Origin: Flavobacteriales bacterium
GTDB taxonomy: Bacteria; Bacteroidota; Bacteroidia; Flavobacteriales_D; CAJJDF01
Assembly: GCA_020630395.1 (NCBI GenBank)
Contig: JAHDBM010000014.1
Location: forward strand, 10,185-59,083
Direction of reading: 5' to 3'
DNA: 48,899 bases
Part shown: in pieces, positions 27,347-48,311 of the stretch
How positions within the stretch are numbered: position 1 is the first letter of the stretch
Layout of the letters: every line of letters begins with the position of its first letter
Notes under the pieces: model-generated
What the model was told of the DNA's origin: nothing
Databases searched by the model: none
Seen by the model: the letters and a program-made list of their open reading frames with translations, nothing else
Translations under genes and position numbers: made by a program

Positions 27347-28612
27347 TTGCAAGAGGCTTTTTTACAATATTTATGGAATTATAAATTACTTAATACTTCT
27401 GATCTATATACAACCGAAGGAGAATCATTAGAAATTATTGATTTCGGTTTATTGAATCAACATTCAGGACCAGATTTTTTTAACGGTAAAATAAAAGTTG
27501 GGAACACTACTTGGGTTGGGAATATCGAAATACATGTAAAGTCATCTGATTGGTATAGGCATAATCATCAAGAGGATAGAGCTTATGATAATGTAATCCT
27601 ACATGTTGTTTATGAAGATGATAAACCATTAATAAACAGCAATGGAGAAATAATTCCTACATTGGTGTTAAGAGCATTATTTGATGATAATTTATATCAA
27701 GATTATAACGTGTTTATTAAGCCTCAAATTCCTTGTATAGATCAGATGTCGAATATAGATTCTATTTATATTTCAGCTTTTAAAGATCAACAGTTAATTG
27801 AGAGATTACAAAGAAAATCTAAAGAAATCGAAGCTGATTTATTAAGAACTGATTATGATTGGGAACAAATATTCTATGAGCACTTATGCAAAAGTATTGG
27901 AGCAAAGGTTAATCAACTACCTTTTAAATTATTAGCAGAATATACTCCCGTGAAGCTATTATATAAAACCACTGATATAAAAGTTGTAGAGTCTATTTTA
28001 TATGGTAATGCGGGATTCCTAGAAGAACAACTAGATAATGAGTACTATATGTCATTGCAAAAAGAGTATCGTTATCAAAAACAAAAACATAATTTTAAAT
28101 CATTAAATAAGCATATATGGAAATTTGCTAAGTTAAGACCATCAAGTTTCCCTTCCGTTAGAGTAGCTCAAGTAGCAAGATTAGTTATGCAAAATCAACA
28201 TTTATTTGATTCCTTAATAAGAAAACAGCCACAAATTGAAGATATAAGAAAAATATTGAGTGTATGTGTAAGTGATGGTTTTTGGTTTACGCATTATACG
28301 TTCACGACTGAGTCTAAAGCAATAAAAAAATCACTTGGTAAACAGATAATCGATAGTATTATCATTAATACTATGGTTCCTTTTTCTTTTTTATATTTTA
28401 CACATAAAGGAAAAGATAATACGTTAAGTTGGGGTAAATATTTATTAGAAAACTTAAAAGCTGAAGATAATAATATAACTCGATTATTTGAGAAGGATAT
28501 TAAAATAGATACTGCTTATGATTCACAAGCTATAATAGAGGCTTATAATAATTATTGTTTATATAAAAAATGCTTGAGCTGTACAATAGGTGTAAAATTA
28601 TTAAAACAATAA
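27347..28612 (+). CDS. DUF2851 family protein
   Basis: 421 residues starting at a TTG two bases after rocD. The N-terminus matches DUF2851 as I know it (QYLWNYKLLNT, NQHSGPDFFNGKIKVG, GNIEIHVKSSDWYRHNHQ, YDNVILHVVYEDD). The family is widespread and almost restricted to Bacteroidota, with no established function; the conserved Glu/His/Asp-rich block near 55-95 suggests an enzyme site. The C-terminus ends KKCLSCTIGVKLLK. Its stop codon overlaps the 3' end of the convergent RNase P RNA gene. Confidence 0.9.
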   Translation: MQEAFLQYLWNYKLLNTSDLYTTEGESLEIIDFGLLNQHSGPDFFNGKIKVGNTTWVGNIEIHVKSSDWYRHNHQEDRAYDNVILHVVYEDDKPLINSNGEIIPTLVLRALFDDNLYQDYNVFIKPQIPCIDQMSNIDSIYISAFKDQQLIERLQRKSKEIEADLLRTDYDWEQIFYEHLCKSIGAKVNQLPFKLLAEYTPVKLLYKTTDIKVVESILYGNAGFLEEQLDNEYYMSLQKEYRYQKQKHNFKSLNKHIWKFAKLRPSSFPSVRVAQVARLVMQNQHLFDSLIRKQPQIEDIRKILSVCVSDGFWFTHYTFTTESKAIKKSLGKQIIDSIIINTMVPFSFLYFTHKGKDNTLSWGKYLLENLKAEDNNITRLFEKDIKIDTAYDSQAIIEAYNNYCLYKKCLSCTIGVKLLKQ

Positions 28613-28967
28613 AGTAAGACTTATAAGCCGGGTTCTGTTATACCTCAAGAAGTATTCTATCATTTATCTAGTCTTACAATCACTCGTAAGATCAATCAAC
28701 CTACCCGTCAAAATCGAGCGAGCAGCTCTCAAGCTTTGACCTATTTGGTTTTTCAACTCATAAGGTTTACCCATTTACATAGTCGCCTATGTAAATTGTG
28801 AGCTCTTACCTCACATTTTCACCCTTACCAAGTTTCCTTGGCGGTTATTTTCTGCGGCACTTTCTGTCATTTGTTTACAAATGCCTTCCCGTTAGGAAGT
28901 ATGATGCTCTATGTTGCCCGGACTTTCCTCTTCTATAAAATAGAAGCGATAGAGAAGTCTTACTTTA
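28611..28967 (-). ncRNA. rnpB: RNase P RNA (class A)
   Basis: On the minus strand the conserved 5' segment GAGGAAAGUCCGGGC (complement of 28916-28930) and the 3' segment ACAGAACCCGGCUUAUA (complement of 28622-28638) are both present. The outer P1 helix pairs AAAGTAAGACTT (28966-28955) with its complement at 28622-28611. The length of about 357 nt fits bacterial RNase P RNA, the ribozyme that trims tRNA 5' leaders. The 5' end is eight bases after the stop codon of the gene at 28975. The 3' end touches the DUF2851 stop codon. Confidence 0.96.
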
Positions 28968-28974
28968 TTAAAAA

Positions 28975-30228
28975 TTACCGATCAAAGTTATGCATTACAA
29001 TCCAGTCTGTACCGTCAGATTTAAGTCTTACTGATCTGTGTACACAACTTCCAGTAGTTGAATTCCCCCATAACCTTAACCTAACACTTGAAGTACTACA
29101 AGCTGTTATTATTCTTTCTCCAGCTGTTGTATATATAAATAAACCATTTGTTCCTAATCCATTACCGTATGGAGTTATACTTAATTCATAATACTGATTA
29201 ATACTTGCATCTGGTAAAAATAGAGTGTCAGTAATATTGCCTGCAGACGTAAATGTAATATCACCATCACTTATTAATATTTGATGAGACGAATTACCTG
29301 TTAGAACAACTCTTGTAATAGGTTTTGTTCCACCTGTTAGTAAGGTTCCTAGCTTTACAAATCTTGAGCCACCACCATCAACTATATATAAGGTGTCATT
29401 AGATAAATAAAAGTTAGTATTATATTCATTACCAACTACACTATCTGCATCATTAACTTTATCCGGTAATAAGTTTCTTAAACTATCAAGGAAAATAGTA
29501 TCCCCTAATAAAGAGTCTCTAATTATCTTGTAGGTTGTATCATTAAAATAAAGGGTGTCTTTTATAGATCCTAATAAACTATCTAGTTTAATTATCCATA
29601 AAGAATCTTTGAGAAGGGAATCAGATATTATTTTATAAACGCTATCAATAAATATGGTGTCACCCAATAAAGAATCTCTTACTATTGTGTAAGTTGTATC
29701 ATTAAAGTATAAGGTATCTTTTCTTGTGATTAATAGACTGTCTAGGGTGTTAACCCATAACGTGTCTTTTAATAAAGAGTCAGAAATATATACATATAAA
29801 CTATCTTTTAATAAATTAAATAAAGTATCTGCTTTTAGCAATATTAAACTATCAATTAAGTTAGTATCAGATGGATGTTGAATAACAACCCAGTTACCAT
29901 CTTCAATGTAGAGTGTGTCATTACTTAATGTTAACAGTTGGTCGTCAGTATACAAAGAATCTCTAACTAAGTTTACTAGAGAATCAAATGAAATTCGTTT
30001 TACTATTCCATTAGTGGTGTCAACCATTAATATATTAGATACAATATTAGTTAATCTTAATCCTTCTATTCTTAATGGATCAAGAACACCAGCAGGTTTA
30101 ACAACATGAAGGGTAGTTGAAGGTGTTGTAGTACCAATACCTACATTTTGTGCATTTGCATTAAAAAAATGTATAGACAAGAAAAAAAGAGCCAAAAGGC
30201 TCTTTTTAAATATTATAGATGATTTCAT
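28975..30228 (-). CDS. Secreted tail-fibre-like protein with duplicated DSLL repeat
   Basis: 417 residues from the ATG at 30226-30228 (an upstream in-frame start would put 13 polar residues before the signal peptide). A signal peptide ending NANAQ is followed by NVGIGTTTPSTTLHVV, the opening seen on many Bacteroidota tail-fibre-like surface proteins. The middle is a Leu/Ile/Asp/Ser/Thr repeat (DSLL-DTLW, DTLYFNDTTY, DSLLGDTIF) with a 53-residue unit present twice. The C-terminal domain has many short beta strands. No T9SS sorting domain or S74 peptidase is seen. The start lies one base after the upstream gene's stop, and an intrinsic terminator is embedded in codons 8-16. Confidence 0.85.
   Translation of the reverse strand: MKSSIIFKKSLLALFFLSIHFFNANAQNVGIGTTTPSTTLHVVKPAGVLDPLRIEGLRLTNIVSNILMVDTTNGIVKRISFDSLVNLVRDSLYTDDQLLTLSNDTLYIEDGNWVVIQHPSDTNLIDSLILLKADTLFNLLKDSLYVYISDSLLKDTLWVNTLDSLLITRKDTLYFNDTTYTIVRDSLLGDTIFIDSVYKIISDSLLKDSLWIIKLDSLLGSIKDTLYFNDTTYKIIRDSLLGDTIFLDSLRNLLPDKVNDADSVVGNEYNTNFYLSNDTLYIVDGGGSRFVKLGTLLTGGTKPITRVVLTGNSSHQILISDGDITFTSAGNITDTLFLPDASINQYYELSITPYGNGLGTNGLFIYTTAGERIITACSTSSVRLRLWGNSTTGSCVHRSVRLKSDGTDWIVMHNFDR
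28983..28990 (-). promoter_or_regulatory. rnpB: Candidate rnpB -7 element (TAACTTTG) inside the upstream gene
   Basis: On the minus strand TAACTTTG matches TAnnTTTG exactly and lies 16 bases before the mature rnpB 5' end. It falls within the last codons of the DSLL-repeat gene. No clear TTG box is visible 19 bases upstream. Confidence 0.5.
29467..29784 (-). repeat. Tandem 159-bp (53-residue) coding duplication
   Basis: Unit 1 (29626-29784) and unit 2 (29467-29625) encode SDSLLKD-LW...DTLYFNDTTY-I-RDSLLGDTIF-DS with only about a dozen differences in 53 residues. They have diverged more at DNA level than at protein level. Confidence 0.85.
30182..30207 (-). terminator. Intrinsic terminator inside the 5' coding region of the next gene
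   Basis: On the minus strand AAAAAGAGCC (30207-30198), loop TTTT, GGCTCTTTTT (30193-30184) form a perfect 10-bp stem ending in seven T. It lies 23 bases after the stop of the 30230-31492 gene but within codons 8-16 of the gene starting at 30228. Confidence 0.8.
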
Positions 30229-30229
30229 T

Positions 30230-31492
30230 TTATTTGTGAATTTGAACATAACCAACATAAGGCTCAATTAATTCAACACCTAAATCTAATACATAAAAAT
30301 AAGTGCCAGAGGGAAGAGTCTCATTTCCTTCTCCATCAAATATAAGATTAATTCCTTTACTTACATTTGCATTTCCATTCCAATCATTTAAATAGCCTTC
30401 CTTTTCATAAACAAGATTACCATACCTGTTAAATACTTGTAATTTATTATTTGGATAATATTCTATGTTATCGATAACAAATATGTCATTCATGTCATCT
30501 CCGTTAGGTGTTATTAATTGAGGTATTTCAATAAGTTTAGAAACAGTATTTAATGCAAAAGCATCATGAGTAAAGTCTCCAACTGATCTTGTTGAGACTC
30601 TATCAGGACTACCAACACTTGAAGCACCTGAAATATTTATGTTAGTGAAATTTGCATTTTCCCATTGATTTGAGTTGTCTTGCCATTGAGCCATACCATC
30701 AAATGTTCCATCAGTACCAAAGTAAAATACATCAACACTAGCAATATCATTACCAGTTAATCTAACAATATTATGGTAAAATTGGTCATTCAATTGATCT
30801 ATGGATGCATCCTTAATTGCTCTGTCAAATGGTCCAACTGCTCCAGTGGCACTAGTACCGTTATCAAATGAAGGGTCATTAGATGATACTCTAACAGCAT
30901 AAGAATTATTAGTAGAAGAAGCAGGTGTTATGTCAACAGCACGATAAATGTTTGTTAGTGTAGAAGACCCTACAGGGTAGGTGTATGTTCCAGTTGAGTT
31001 AGTTTCTCTTGATAAATAACCACCTAACGTGTTACTAGCCACAAAGCCATTATTCCAAGCAATAGCAGTTGTAGCAGGGTTTGTGACAAACATAGTGTTA
31101 ACTTGAGTTTGAAGTTCAGCATCAATTAAGTCTAATTCATTTTCAGTCTCTGCGTCAATGTTCATAGTTTTGGTTACAGCACCTCCATTTAATTCTAAAT
31201 TGTAAAAACGAGTTAAATCAGAACCATCTATTAATTGTGCGCCACCATTCATGATAACTGTTCCAGGAGAAGAATTGATTAATGCAGTATTTCCACCATT
31301 ATTAATCCAATCACCTTCTAAATAAATATCACCTGAATTATCAATTTGACCACCAGGCTCATTAAGAACATAATCCTCTGAGTAAACTATTGCTCCAGGC
31401 TGAACAAATATCATACTGTTATCGTTCGTAATCTGTGCTTTGGAAGCAAAGCTTAATCCAAATGCTAGAGATATAATTAGCGTTTTTTTCAT
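30230..31492 (-). CDS. T9SS type B secreted surface protein
   Basis: 420 residues. A signal peptide (LIISLAFGLSFASKAQ) is followed by a beta-helix-like region rich in Asn/Gly (GGQIDNSGDIYLEGDWINNGGN), a middle beta domain with a TYPVG motif, and a type B sorting domain over the last 85 residues (LITPNGDDMNDIF, FNRYGNLVYEKEGYLNDWNG, LPSGTYFYVLD). It is exported by T9SS and probably surface attached. It is the upstream member of a two-gene minus-strand unit, separated by one base from the DSLL-repeat gene. A perfect 7-1-7 palindrome (31500-31514) lies just before its ATG. Confidence 0.9.
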   Translation of the reverse strand: MKKTLIISLAFGLSFASKAQITNDNSMIFVQPGAIVYSEDYVLNEPGGQIDNSGDIYLEGDWINNGGNTALINSSPGTVIMNGGAQLIDGSDLTRFYNLELNGGAVTKTMNIDAETENELDLIDAELQTQVNTMFVTNPATTAIAWNNGFVASNTLGGYLSRETNSTGTYTYPVGSSTLTNIYRAVDITPASSTNNSYAVRVSSNDPSFDNGTSATGAVGPFDRAIKDASIDQLNDQFYHNIVRLTGNDIASVDVFYFGTDGTFDGMAQWQDNSNQWENANFTNINISGASSVGSPDRVSTRSVGDFTHDAFALNTVSKLIEIPQLITPNGDDMNDIFVIDNIEYYPNNKLQVFNRYGNLVYEKEGYLNDWNGNANVSKGINLIFDGEGNETLPSGTYFYVLDLGVELIEPYVGYVQIHK

Positions 31493-44676: not shown

Positions 44677-47286
44677 ATGCAATTACGTTTACTTTCCCTT
44701 TCATTACTTTCATTATTTTCTATTACGATATTAGCTCAAAGTTCTAACATGACAGTTGTTGGAACATGGAAGGATGTAACGATACCCAAAAACAACAATA
44801 ATCAAACTTATAATGATTGTTGGGGGTGGGAACAAAATGGAAGAGAATATGCTGTTATTGGTTCTAGAATAGGTTCGCATATTATTGATGTAACAAATCC
44901 TGCTAGCCCAGTTGAGGTAGATCGAGTTATTGGGAATTACACAGGAAGTAATGTTATCCACAGAGATTACAAAGTACACAAGGGACATCTATATATGGTT
45001 GGAGATCAAGGATCAAGTACATTACAAATAGCAGATTTGTCTTACTTGCCAGATTCTGTTCATGTTGTGTATGATAATAATTCATTGGTGGTTAAATCAC
45101 ATAATATTTTTGTTGATTCTGCTCATGATATTCTGTATTCATGTGGAGGATCTAAATTAACAGGTGATAATGATTTAAGACTTTTTGATATCTCATCTCC
45201 AGCTAATCCGGTTTTATTAAAAGACTGTAAAGATGATTTTGCTTGGTGGAGTGGATCAATTGGATATGTTCATGACATATATGTTGAGAATAATATTGCA
45301 TACACGCACGACCTTGATGCCATGCATATTGTGGATTTTACCAATATTAACTCGCCAGTAGTATTAGGCTCCTTATCTTCTTACCCCGATCAAGGAATTA
45401 ACCACTCGGGTTGGTTACATGCAGATGACACCACTTATGTGATGCTAGATGAAACACATGGTAAGCGATTAAAATTTATGGATGTAGCAAATCCATCTAG
45501 TATAACTGTTACCGATCTTGAAGGTCCTAATACTTCATCTACTGCAATCGCTCATAATGGGTTTATTAAAGGAGATTTATGTTATGTAAGTTATTATTAT
45601 GATGGCGTATATGTTTTTGATGTTTCCGATAGAAATAATGTTACAATAGCAGGTTTTTATGATACGTATCAAGGACCAGATGGAAGTGGTTTTCATGGTT
45701 GTTGGGGAGTTTATCCATATTTGCCTTCAGGTAATATTATTGCCTCTGATCTAGAAACAGGATTATATGTGATGAGTTTAAATACCTCACCAACACCTAC
45801 TGCTAATTTTACTGGTTCACCAACAACTGTGTGTGCTGGCGATCAAGTTACCTTTAATAATACCTCAATTTCAGGTGCTTCATACCAATGGTCATTTCAA
45901 GGAGGAACCCCAGCAACTAGTACTCTTCAAAATCCTACCGTTACCTATTCAACAAGTGGTACTTATGATGTAACCCTTATTGCAACCAATTCATTTGGTA
46001 GTGATACATTAATTAAAACTGCATACATTAATGTTTTACAAGGTCCTTGTTTAACATTACCTCCAGGTGGTAATGCACCTACACAAACTACTTGTCAAGG
46101 TACTTTATTTGATGATGGTGGTCCAGGAGGAATATATACTAGAAATCAAGATACTTATGTATTGATTCAACCTACAGGAGCTACAAGTGTTGATGTTAGT
46201 TTTCCGTTTTTTGATATTGAAAGTGGAGCAGGTAGTTCGGCACCTCCTTGCGGATATGATTATATTGAACTGTATGACGGGACAAGTGTAGCTGCTCCAT
46301 TAATTGGACGATATTGTAATGGAAATATACCTCCTTCAACTGTTAGTTCGTCTGGTGGGGCTATGTATGTTAAGTTTCATACCGATCCAGGTGCTCACCT
46401 TCAAGGATTTCAATTAGATTGGACATGTGTTACAAGTAATCCACCACCAGTTGCTAATTTTAGTGGCTCACCAACAACTCTTTGTGAGGGAGATACAGTT
46501 GTGTATTCAGATCAAAGTACTGGGTCACCAACAAGTTGGTCTTGGTCATTTCCTGGAGGAACACCTAGTTCTAGTACTTTGCAAAATCCATCAGTGGTAT
46601 ACAATACAGCTGGAAATTATGATGCAAAGTTAGTAGTAACGAATGGAGGTGGATCTGATAGTTTAACACAAACAAGTTATATTACAGTAAATGTATGTGG
46701 AGGAGGTCAGCCAAGTATTAACTTTACTGCAGCTGCCAATACAGTTGGAGAAAATGTAGGGGCTCAGCAAATAGATGTTTCATTATCTGCGACATATACT
46801 TCTGCTGTTTTTGTACAGGTAGATTTAGATGTTTCGAGTACAGCTACAAATTCAGTTGATTATACTACTCCTAGTCCCTTTCCAATTACCTTAGTTTTTC
46901 CTCCAAATACAACAGCACCTCAATCGGTATTTGTTAATGTGGTTGATGATGCTGTGTCAGAATCAAGTGAAACGGTTAAATTAATATTACAAAATCCAGT
47001 TAATGGGGTACTAGGTACAACAACTCAACATACGTTAACTATAGATGATAATGATGTTATTGGTATTAACGAATTAGCTAAAGGGAAAATAATATTATAT
47101 CCAAACCCAGTAAAAGTTGGTGAAACTGTATCGTTAGGCTTTAAAACTGATGTTAGTGTATTTGATGTAAGTGGTCAAATGGTTTATGATGGATTAAATA
47201 TTAGTTCATTCTCTACATCAAATATGCAGGCCGGATGTTATTTTATTAAAACTACCAAGGGAATGGCCAAGCTTATGGTCGAGTAA
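44677..47286 (+). CDS. Choice-of-anchor B family surface protein with PKD, CUB, Calx-beta and T9SS type A domains
   Basis: 869 residues. After a signal peptide (LSLFSITILAQ) comes a beta-propeller-like choice-of-anchor B domain (about 25-370; IIDVTNPASPVEV, LFDISSPANPVLL, HIVDFTNINSPVVL, FDVSDRNNV repeats). PKD 1 (about 374-452) is followed by a CUB-like domain (about 456-588; GYDYIELYDGT), PKD 2 (about 588-670), Calx-beta (about 678-788; ending LTIDDND) and a type A sorting domain (LYPNPVKVGETV). The protein is surface displayed by T9SS; the many binding modules suggest adhesion or polymer contact. Its stop overlaps the ATG of the PorP/SprF gene by one base, so the products are made together. 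Confidence 0.93.
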   Translation: MQLRLLSLSLLSLFSITILAQSSNMTVVGTWKDVTIPKNNNNQTYNDCWGWEQNGREYAVIGSRIGSHIIDVTNPASPVEVDRVIGNYTGSNVIHRDYKVHKGHLYMVGDQGSSTLQIADLSYLPDSVHVVYDNNSLVVKSHNIFVDSAHDILYSCGGSKLTGDNDLRLFDISSPANPVLLKDCKDDFAWWSGSIGYVHDIYVENNIAYTHDLDAMHIVDFTNINSPVVLGSLSSYPDQGINHSGWLHADDTTYVMLDETHGKRLKFMDVANPSSITVTDLEGPNTSSTAIAHNGFIKGDLCYVSYYYDGVYVFDVSDRNNVTIAGFYDTYQGPDGSGFHGCWGVYPYLPSGNIIASDLETGLYVMSLNTSPTPTANFTGSPTTVCAGDQVTFNNTSISGASYQWSFQGGTPATSTLQNPTVTYSTSGTYDVTLIATNSFGSDTLIKTAYINVLQGPCLTLPPGGNAPTQTTCQGTLFDDGGPGGIYTRNQDTYVLIQPTGATSVDVSFPFFDIESGAGSSAPPCGYDYIELYDGTSVAAPLIGRYCNGNIPPSTVSSSGGAMYVKFHTDPGAHLQGFQLDWTCVTSNPPPVANFSGSPTTLCEGDTVVYSDQSTGSPTSWSWSFPGGTPSSSTLQNPSVVYNTAGNYDAKLVVTNGGGSDSLTQTSYITVNVCGGGQPSINFTAAANTVGENVGAQQIDVSLSATYTSAVFVQVDLDVSSTATNSVDYTTPSPFPITLVFPPNTTAPQSVFVNVVDDAVSESSETVKLILQNPVNGVLGTTTQHTLTIDDNDVIGINELAKGKIILYPNPVKVGETVSLGFKTDVSVFDVSGQMVYDGLNISSFSTSNMQAGCYFIKTTKGMAKLMVE

Positions 47287-48311
47287 TGAATATAAGGTTA
47301 TTAAATAAAATGTTTTGGTTGTCGCTCATCTTTTTGATGAGCGGCTTTTCTGTTTTAGGACAAGATATTCATTTCTCACAATTTTATAATTCTCCTTTAA
47401 ATTTAAATCCAGCATTAACAGGGCAGTTTGATGGAGATTATCGATTTGTTGGAAATTATAGAAATCAATGGAGTTCGGTTACTGTTCCATACCAAACGTT
47501 TAGTTTTTCTGCTGATGCAGCTAATTTTTTAGATAAAAAGAGTGTAGGAGCGGGTATTGTGTTTAATCATGATAATACGGGGGATTCACGTTTTAAAACA
47601 ACTATTATAAATGCAATTGGTAATTATAAATTGGCGTTAAATAAAGACTCAAATCAATATTTAGGAGCAGGAGTATCTATAGGATATACCAATAAAAATC
47701 TATCTTACGACCCTTTAAGATTCGATAATCAGTACAATGGAGTTCGATATGATGCAGGATTACCTAATGGAGAAACGTTTACTACAGGCGCTCAAAATTA
47801 TATGAATCTTCATGCTGGTCTCAGCTATTTTTATCAAATTGAAGAAAGAAAAAAAGTTGAGGTAGGGGCATCATTATTTAATATAACTGCTCCAAAAGAA
47901 TCATTCTTTGGAAATGATGCAGTTAGATTAGACAGAAGAATAAACCTTCATGCAACTGTTCAGTATCAAATAAATGATAAAATAGATGTTATGCCTTCCA
48001 TTATGTTAATGAGACAAGGTACATATACTGAGTTAATAATGGGAGCTTTTGGGAAATATATAGTAACCGATTTTAGAGGGCAATATCAAGCAGCTTATGT
48101 AGGAATGTGGTTTAGAGCAAAAGATGCTGGATACATGAGTGCTGGGTATGAGTTTAATAATTGGAATTTAGCGATTAGTTACGATTTCAATTTCTCTACT
48201 TTACGCCCAGCTAGTAGAGGTAGGGGAGGAATAGAACTAGCGGCTATTTATATTTTAAAACAATATAAACCAACAAAAATTAAGCATAGAATTTGTCCAG
48301 ATTATCTTTAA
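47286..48311 (+). CDS. PorP/SprF family type IX secretion membrane protein
   Basis: 341 residues. A signal peptide (LIFLMSGFSVLGQ) leads directly into the family signature QDIHFSQFYNSPLNLNPALTG, then a row of outer-membrane beta strands (YRFVGNYRNQW, VGAGIVFNHDNTGDS, YLGAGVSIGYTNKNL, LHAGLSYFYQI, YMSAGYEFNNWNLAISYDF). PorP/SprF proteins are outer-membrane beta barrels needed for export or attachment of particular T9SS cargo. The gene begins within the stop codon of the upstream cargo gene and overlaps the PorE-like gene, pointing to a dedicated cargo-accessory set. Confidence 0.95.
   Translation: MNIRLLNKMFWLSLIFLMSGFSVLGQDIHFSQFYNSPLNLNPALTGQFDGDYRFVGNYRNQWSSVTVPYQTFSFSADAANFLDKKSVGAGIVFNHDNTGDSRFKTTIINAIGNYKLALNKDSNQYLGAGVSIGYTNKNLSYDPLRFDNQYNGVRYDAGLPNGETFTTGAQNYMNLHAGLSYFYQIEERKKVEVGASLFNITAPKESFFGNDAVRLDRRINLHATVQYQINDKIDVMPSIMLMRQGTYTELIMGAFGKYIVTDFRGQYQAAYVGMWFRAKDAGYMSAGYEFNNWNLAISYDFNFSTLRPASRGRGGIELAAIYILKQYKPTKIKHRICPDYL

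Follow-up and report, generated by a model that had tools for sequence, protein, structure and literature searches.

A terminator-like hairpin within signal-peptide codons at a tight gene junction of a Flavobacteriales bacterium: a possible built-in attenuator

In the leader-peptide attenuators of the trp and his operons, the occupancy of codons by the ribosome decides whether a terminator forms. In E. coli, the terminator of the frd operon is also the attenuator of ampC, for which growth-rate-dependent antitermination is reported (PMC6045580). In Burkholderia, the terminator of nlpD1 likewise attenuates the next gene, penA (PMC6045580). Transcript 3' ends that lie inside E. coli open reading frames have mostly been assigned to Rho or to RNase processing (PMC7815308). 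A literature search, confined largely to open-access papers, found no described terminator within signal-peptide codons.

The window analyzed here, meaning the whole stretch of 48,899 nucleotides, contains two abutting minus-strand genes, designated U (upstream) and D (downstream), and a hairpin in the signal-peptide codons of D. The preferred reading, to which a probability of roughly 0.6 is given on the basis of the sequence, is that the hairpin is the intrinsic terminator of U overlapping the signal-peptide codons of D, and that it would be leaky and sensitive to translation, that is, a built-in attenuator.

The U-D junction and its hairpin

The sequence-only reading of this DNA had placed the two genes one base apart and had taken U for a T9SS type B protein. 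Both points held. The U stop codon TAA (30232-30230) and the ATG of D (30228) are separated by a single base (30229) on the minus strand, and U matched CHU_C (PF13585) and TIGR04131 over the cut-off. D matched no Pfam or NCBIfam family. Its signal peptide was judged from the sequence (KK, LLALFF, NANAQ) rather than with SignalP. The possibility was considered that the start of D is mis-called, but this was rejected because a start 3' of the hairpin would lose the signal peptide that inspected D-family genes have. The coordinates of all features are collected in Table 1.

Table 1. Position and basis of the features at the U-D junction and at related junctions
Feature	Position	Strand	Basis or remark
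U, upstream gene, encoding a secreted 420-aa protein of T9SS type B (CHU_C)	30230..31492	-	ORF; PF13585 E 9e-27, TIGR04131 E 1e-12, over cut-off
D, 417-aa signal-peptide protein, VGIGTTTP N-terminus, DSLL repeats, downstream gene	28975..30228	-	ORF
D signal-peptide codons (MKSSIIFKKSLLALFFLSIHFFNANAQ)	30148..30228	-	translation; cleavage site inferred by eye
Terminator-like hairpin AAAAAGAGCC(TTTT)GGCTCTTTTT, codons 8-15 of D	30184..30207	-	perfect 10-bp stem, 4 GC pairs, TTTT loop
Seven-T tract	30182..30188	-	T 1-5 of the tract pair with the A tract when the stem takes its long form
TATATTTG, matches Bacteroidota -7 box TAnnTTTG, inside U	30337..30344	-	candidate promoter only
TAATTTTG, ahead of U	31583		candidate promoter only
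rnpB, the gene following D (class A RNase P RNA)	28608..28965	-	RF00010, 275 bits
Second window hairpin of the class, GTCGCTCATC(TTTTT)GATGAGCGGC, in PorP/SprF signal-peptide codons	47321..47345	+	
glgA-DUF4270 junctions	L236-L254; copy of this genome in L131:16587 region		
T9SS-A-SusC-like hairpin AATCCTATCTCT..AGGGATAGGATT, TTTT tail, signal-peptide codons	L117:15093-15122 (set L256-L260)		
coaX	start L074:3978 (set L206-L210)	minus	

The hairpin occupies nucleotides 22-45 of D and is followed by the tail TTCTTG, the T-run extending to nucleotide 47, so the description of a perfect 10-bp stem, a TTTT loop and seven T in codons 8-16 was confirmed by the sequence. The element has the shape of an intrinsic (Rho-independent) terminator, with a GC-containing stem, a short loop and an immediate U tract. 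It also has the placement of one, close behind the stop codon of U: it begins 22 nt past this stop, and for the genome's 3'UTR terminators the median distance is likewise 22 nt (quartiles 18-29). Among the terminator-like sites in 16 kb, it is the best-stemmed. The folding energy of the stem, -12.9 kcal/mol, is weaker than that of about 90% of ordinary terminators (n=74 3'UTR terminators), and a d'Aubenton-Carafa-type score, which gives credit for the U-tract, was 33.9, the 76th percentile of the genome's 3'UTR terminators. Rfam at the gathering threshold gave RNase P as the sole match in the window; the hairpin matched no Rfam family. A search of the 3.53-Mb genome allowing one mismatch found a single copy, and an origin from a dispersed repeat was therefore rejected.

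When the signal peptide of D was resampled 20,000 times with the genome's own synonymous codons, a terminator-like hairpin of at least 10 bp arose in 0.07% of the resamplings (P=0.0007). This rarity and the canonical distance from the U stop bear out the earlier proposal that the same bases make up a terminator-like element and signal-peptide codons.

The placement of a terminator behind U is well supported. We infer that termination occurs in the cell and is leaky: transcripts of U would mostly end at about 30183-30178, and D would be expressed from the read-through fraction or from a promoter within U. Gating of this attenuation by translation is suggested by the geometry of the junction. 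A ribosome finishing U would not, given its footprint, reach the hairpin; it would stop short and leave the transcripts of U to terminate. An initiating ribosome reaches to about +15/16. The earlier statement that a ribosome starting at 30228 would cover the hairpin is thus probably off in this detail, since the hairpin starts at +22, although the first elongation steps would cover it. A ribosome reinitiating at the D ATG would melt the hairpin a few codons on. Given the position of the hairpin in D, an early-elongating ribosome would be expected to do so, and read-through would rise with prompt translation of D. In principle the terminator would thereby respond to translation, in line with the sequence-only reading, which had further proposed that such an attenuator would tune the ratio of the T9SS type B protein to the DSLL-repeat protein.

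The Bacteroidota -7 box has the consensus TAnnTTTG (PMC7366714), and E. coli-type promoter matches at 30240 were set aside because the group is reported to use this box. For the two candidate promoters, TATATTTG (30344) and TAATTTTG (31583), no match to a -33 element (TTG) was found at the proper spacing. At the other end of D, rnpB begins after a gap of 9 nt, and the last codons of D contain a perfect match to TAnnTTTG (TAACTTTG, 28990-28983), so that transcription of rnpB may start inside D.

Conservation at the locus

In the sole other genome of the genus, U (48% identical) lies directly before rnpB, without D. No orthologous U-D junction was found, as D is absent in this congener and no U precedes rnpB in the sister genus (G002-G005). 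A scan of genome contigs for U gave distant relatives only. The possibility that the terminator of U shields rnpB was not supported, since in the congener no terminator separates U from the rnpB that directly follows it.

A paralogous pair, U'-D', on contig 80 keeps the signal peptide and a 5-nt gap and has no hairpin. The sequence-only reading had named retention of the signal peptide without the hairpin in orthologues as a refuting pattern; U'-D' has this pattern, but it is a paralogue, not an orthologue. The loci compared contain 12 genes, D among them, that share the N-terminal motif, and the 11 others of this D family likewise lack the hairpin. The absence of D in the congener and the paralogous pair without a hairpin indicate that U and D are not conserved as a unit and that such a pair need not carry the hairpin.

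The D family is expanded in this genome, with 28 matches. Proteins of the VGIGTTTP/DSLL-repeat type are expanded in this genome and the congener and are rare beyond the family; another such gene directly follows the U paralogue on contig 80. T9SS type B genes of the U type in the family usually directly precede a PorP/SprF-like gene (L043, L044, L050-L053). The U of the window precedes D instead.

Hairpins at other tight junctions

A scan of 707 kb of this genome found no more than eight intragenic hairpins of at least 10 bp with a T tract on the coding strand; four of the eight lie no further than 80 nt into a gene abutting its upstream neighbor. The count was extended to about 1.4 Mb from two congeners (1.05 Mb from this genome, 0.36 Mb from the other), with signal peptides called by a heuristic. 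At tight junctions, 5 of 82 signal-peptide genes had a hairpin, two of the five belonging to the discovery set, versus 0 of 278 signal-peptide genes elsewhere. The corresponding figures were 2 of 197 for the other tight-junction genes and 0 of 532 for the remaining genes; the effect is much weaker in junction genes that lack a signal peptide. For the tight signal-peptide group, synonymous codons predicted 0.03 hairpins against the 5 observed, and the antisense control gave 0. In held-out data, which included two genomes of another family, the counts were 4/93 versus 0/252 (p=0.005). Of these two genomes, the one at 39% GC (G007) gave 0/21 and the one at 34.5% GC gave 1/25, plus one just outside the class definition.

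In most pairs of the class, the two genes are unrelated (glgA/DUF4270, sodA/TM2, PfkB/coaX). The window itself holds a second member, in a PorP/SprF gene (47286-48311, plus strand) whose start and the stop of the preceding T9SS gene overlap; this hairpin is not conserved in 11 homologues.

Of 20 loci across the order at which glgA adjoins the DUF4270 gene (PF14092), 15 have a hairpin in lipoprotein signal-peptide codons, 29-47 nt past the glgA stop. All 15 hairpins had P<0.05 under synonymous resampling of each locus's own codons; the combined p of 1e-21 takes no account of relatedness and means only that the value is very small. The stems range from GCGGAAAGTA/TACTTTCCGC to GCGGCCG/TGGCCGC. 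In a 16-sequence set, made up of the 15 and one locus with a single inner stem mismatch and with the register anchored on the left-arm GG, the six outer pairs are paired in every sequence and two-sided changes occur at four positions. Behind the stem, 93 T were observed and 83.1 (sd 2.8) were expected from synonymous codons. Among the Arg codons of this genome, CGG is the least used (1.1%), and it occurs in the stem of the genome's own copy. Rfam gave no family match in ten DUF4270 loci.

At the junction of a T9SS-A gene with a SusC-like TonB receptor gene, each of the five family members compared retains the hairpin (5/5), the changes in its stem being compensated. The gene for the cytoplasmic type III pantothenate kinase, coaX, has a long hairpin in codons 11-23. 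It too occurs in all five family members (5/5), its U tract being good in this genome only and partly lost in the others. Judged by covariation, two members of the class other than the U-D case, glgA-DUF4270 and T9SS-A-SusC-like, are conserved. The members thus differ in conservation and so in age, and the hairpin in D is probably young or lineage-specific. The wider class, and glgA/DUF4270 above all, is a more valuable lead than the U-D junction.

A terminator of low GC content (A tract, GC core, U tract) would translate as Lys-Lys, then Leu/Phe, which may be why signal-peptide codons suit a terminator role. When 3' terminators from three low-GC samples were read in their sense frames, an open Lys/Arg-then-hydrophobic core was found at about three times the frequency in shuffles, and on the antisense strand it was never seen; the numbers were small. 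The signal-peptide-like sense reading fits the view that signal-peptide codons may tolerate terminators, or that gene starts shifted upstream may recruit terminators as signal peptides.

The possibility was considered that chance alone explains the hairpin in D, AT-rich codons for Lys and Phe in a signal peptide happening to pair. Terminators and signal peptides are alike in composition, as the threefold excess over shuffles illustrates. However, the synonymous null of 0.0007 for D and the excess of 5 over 0.03 in the class make this explanation highly improbable; rarity under resampling and recurrence at tight junctions show that the hairpin is unlikely to be a coincidence. Even less credence is given to an action on translation or export, such as pausing as the signal peptide emerges, rather than on transcription. 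The class members are mainly signal-peptide genes, but coaX is cytoplasmic, and an equal frequency of hairpins in signal-peptide genes without a tight upstream neighbor would have favored such a role, whereas none of the 278 has one. It is improbable, if less so, that the hairpin is a decay barrier or processing site that protects the mRNA of U within a U-D operon. Differential decay within operons is known (PMC5927463), and the coaX hairpin, kept in all five family members with its good U-tract confined to this genome, would suit this function; the long U-tract of the D hairpin and the T behind the DUF4270 stem in excess of synonymous expectation argue against it.

The most serious of these alternatives, although unlikely, is a plain overlap without regulation, in which the genome is simply compact, D is served by its own promoter in U or by constant read-through, and translating D exerts no control. 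The unrelatedness of most gene pairs in the class, the -7-like box TATATTTG located 116 nt before D, and a hairpin position that is that of an ordinary terminator are all consistent with it. However, transcripts from a promoter inside U would meet the same hairpin about 50 nt past the D ATG, so that D needs some escape route in any case, and the deep conservation of glgA/DUF4270 suggests more than passive sharing.

Tentatively, and with somewhat less than even odds, signal-peptide-embedded terminators may form a conserved regulatory class in Flavobacteriales. Terminators would evolve in the signal-peptide codons of exported-protein genes that abut an unrelated upstream gene, and prompt translation of the signal peptide would license the rest of the gene. 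If so, the signal peptide would carry a second, RNA-level function under selection, one overlooked by gene finders and by terminator finders restricted to intergenic space, and surface proteins at tight junctions would have a simple means of dose setting or gating. The glgA/DUF4270 hairpin, kept order-wide with changed letters, makes the class idea directly testable.

Comparison with known systems

The 3' ends inside E. coli open reading frames resemble the U-D case in that transcripts end within coding sequence, although for D such ends are predicted only. They differ in that the U-D hairpin has the canonical shape of an intrinsic terminator and a fixed place behind the upstream stop. As in the trp and his attenuators, a ribosome on the codons would decide whether the U-D terminator forms; however, neither a separate leader ORF nor an alternative hairpin was found at U-D, and the codons concerned are those of the regulated gene. 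With frd/ampC and nlpD1/penA, the junction would share an upstream terminator that doubles as the attenuator of the next gene, a role proposed for U-D from sequence. Descriptions of those two systems place the terminator ahead of the downstream gene, whereas the U-D hairpin lies inside the signal-peptide codons of D. The frd/ampC overlap is the closest precedent for the U-D arrangement.
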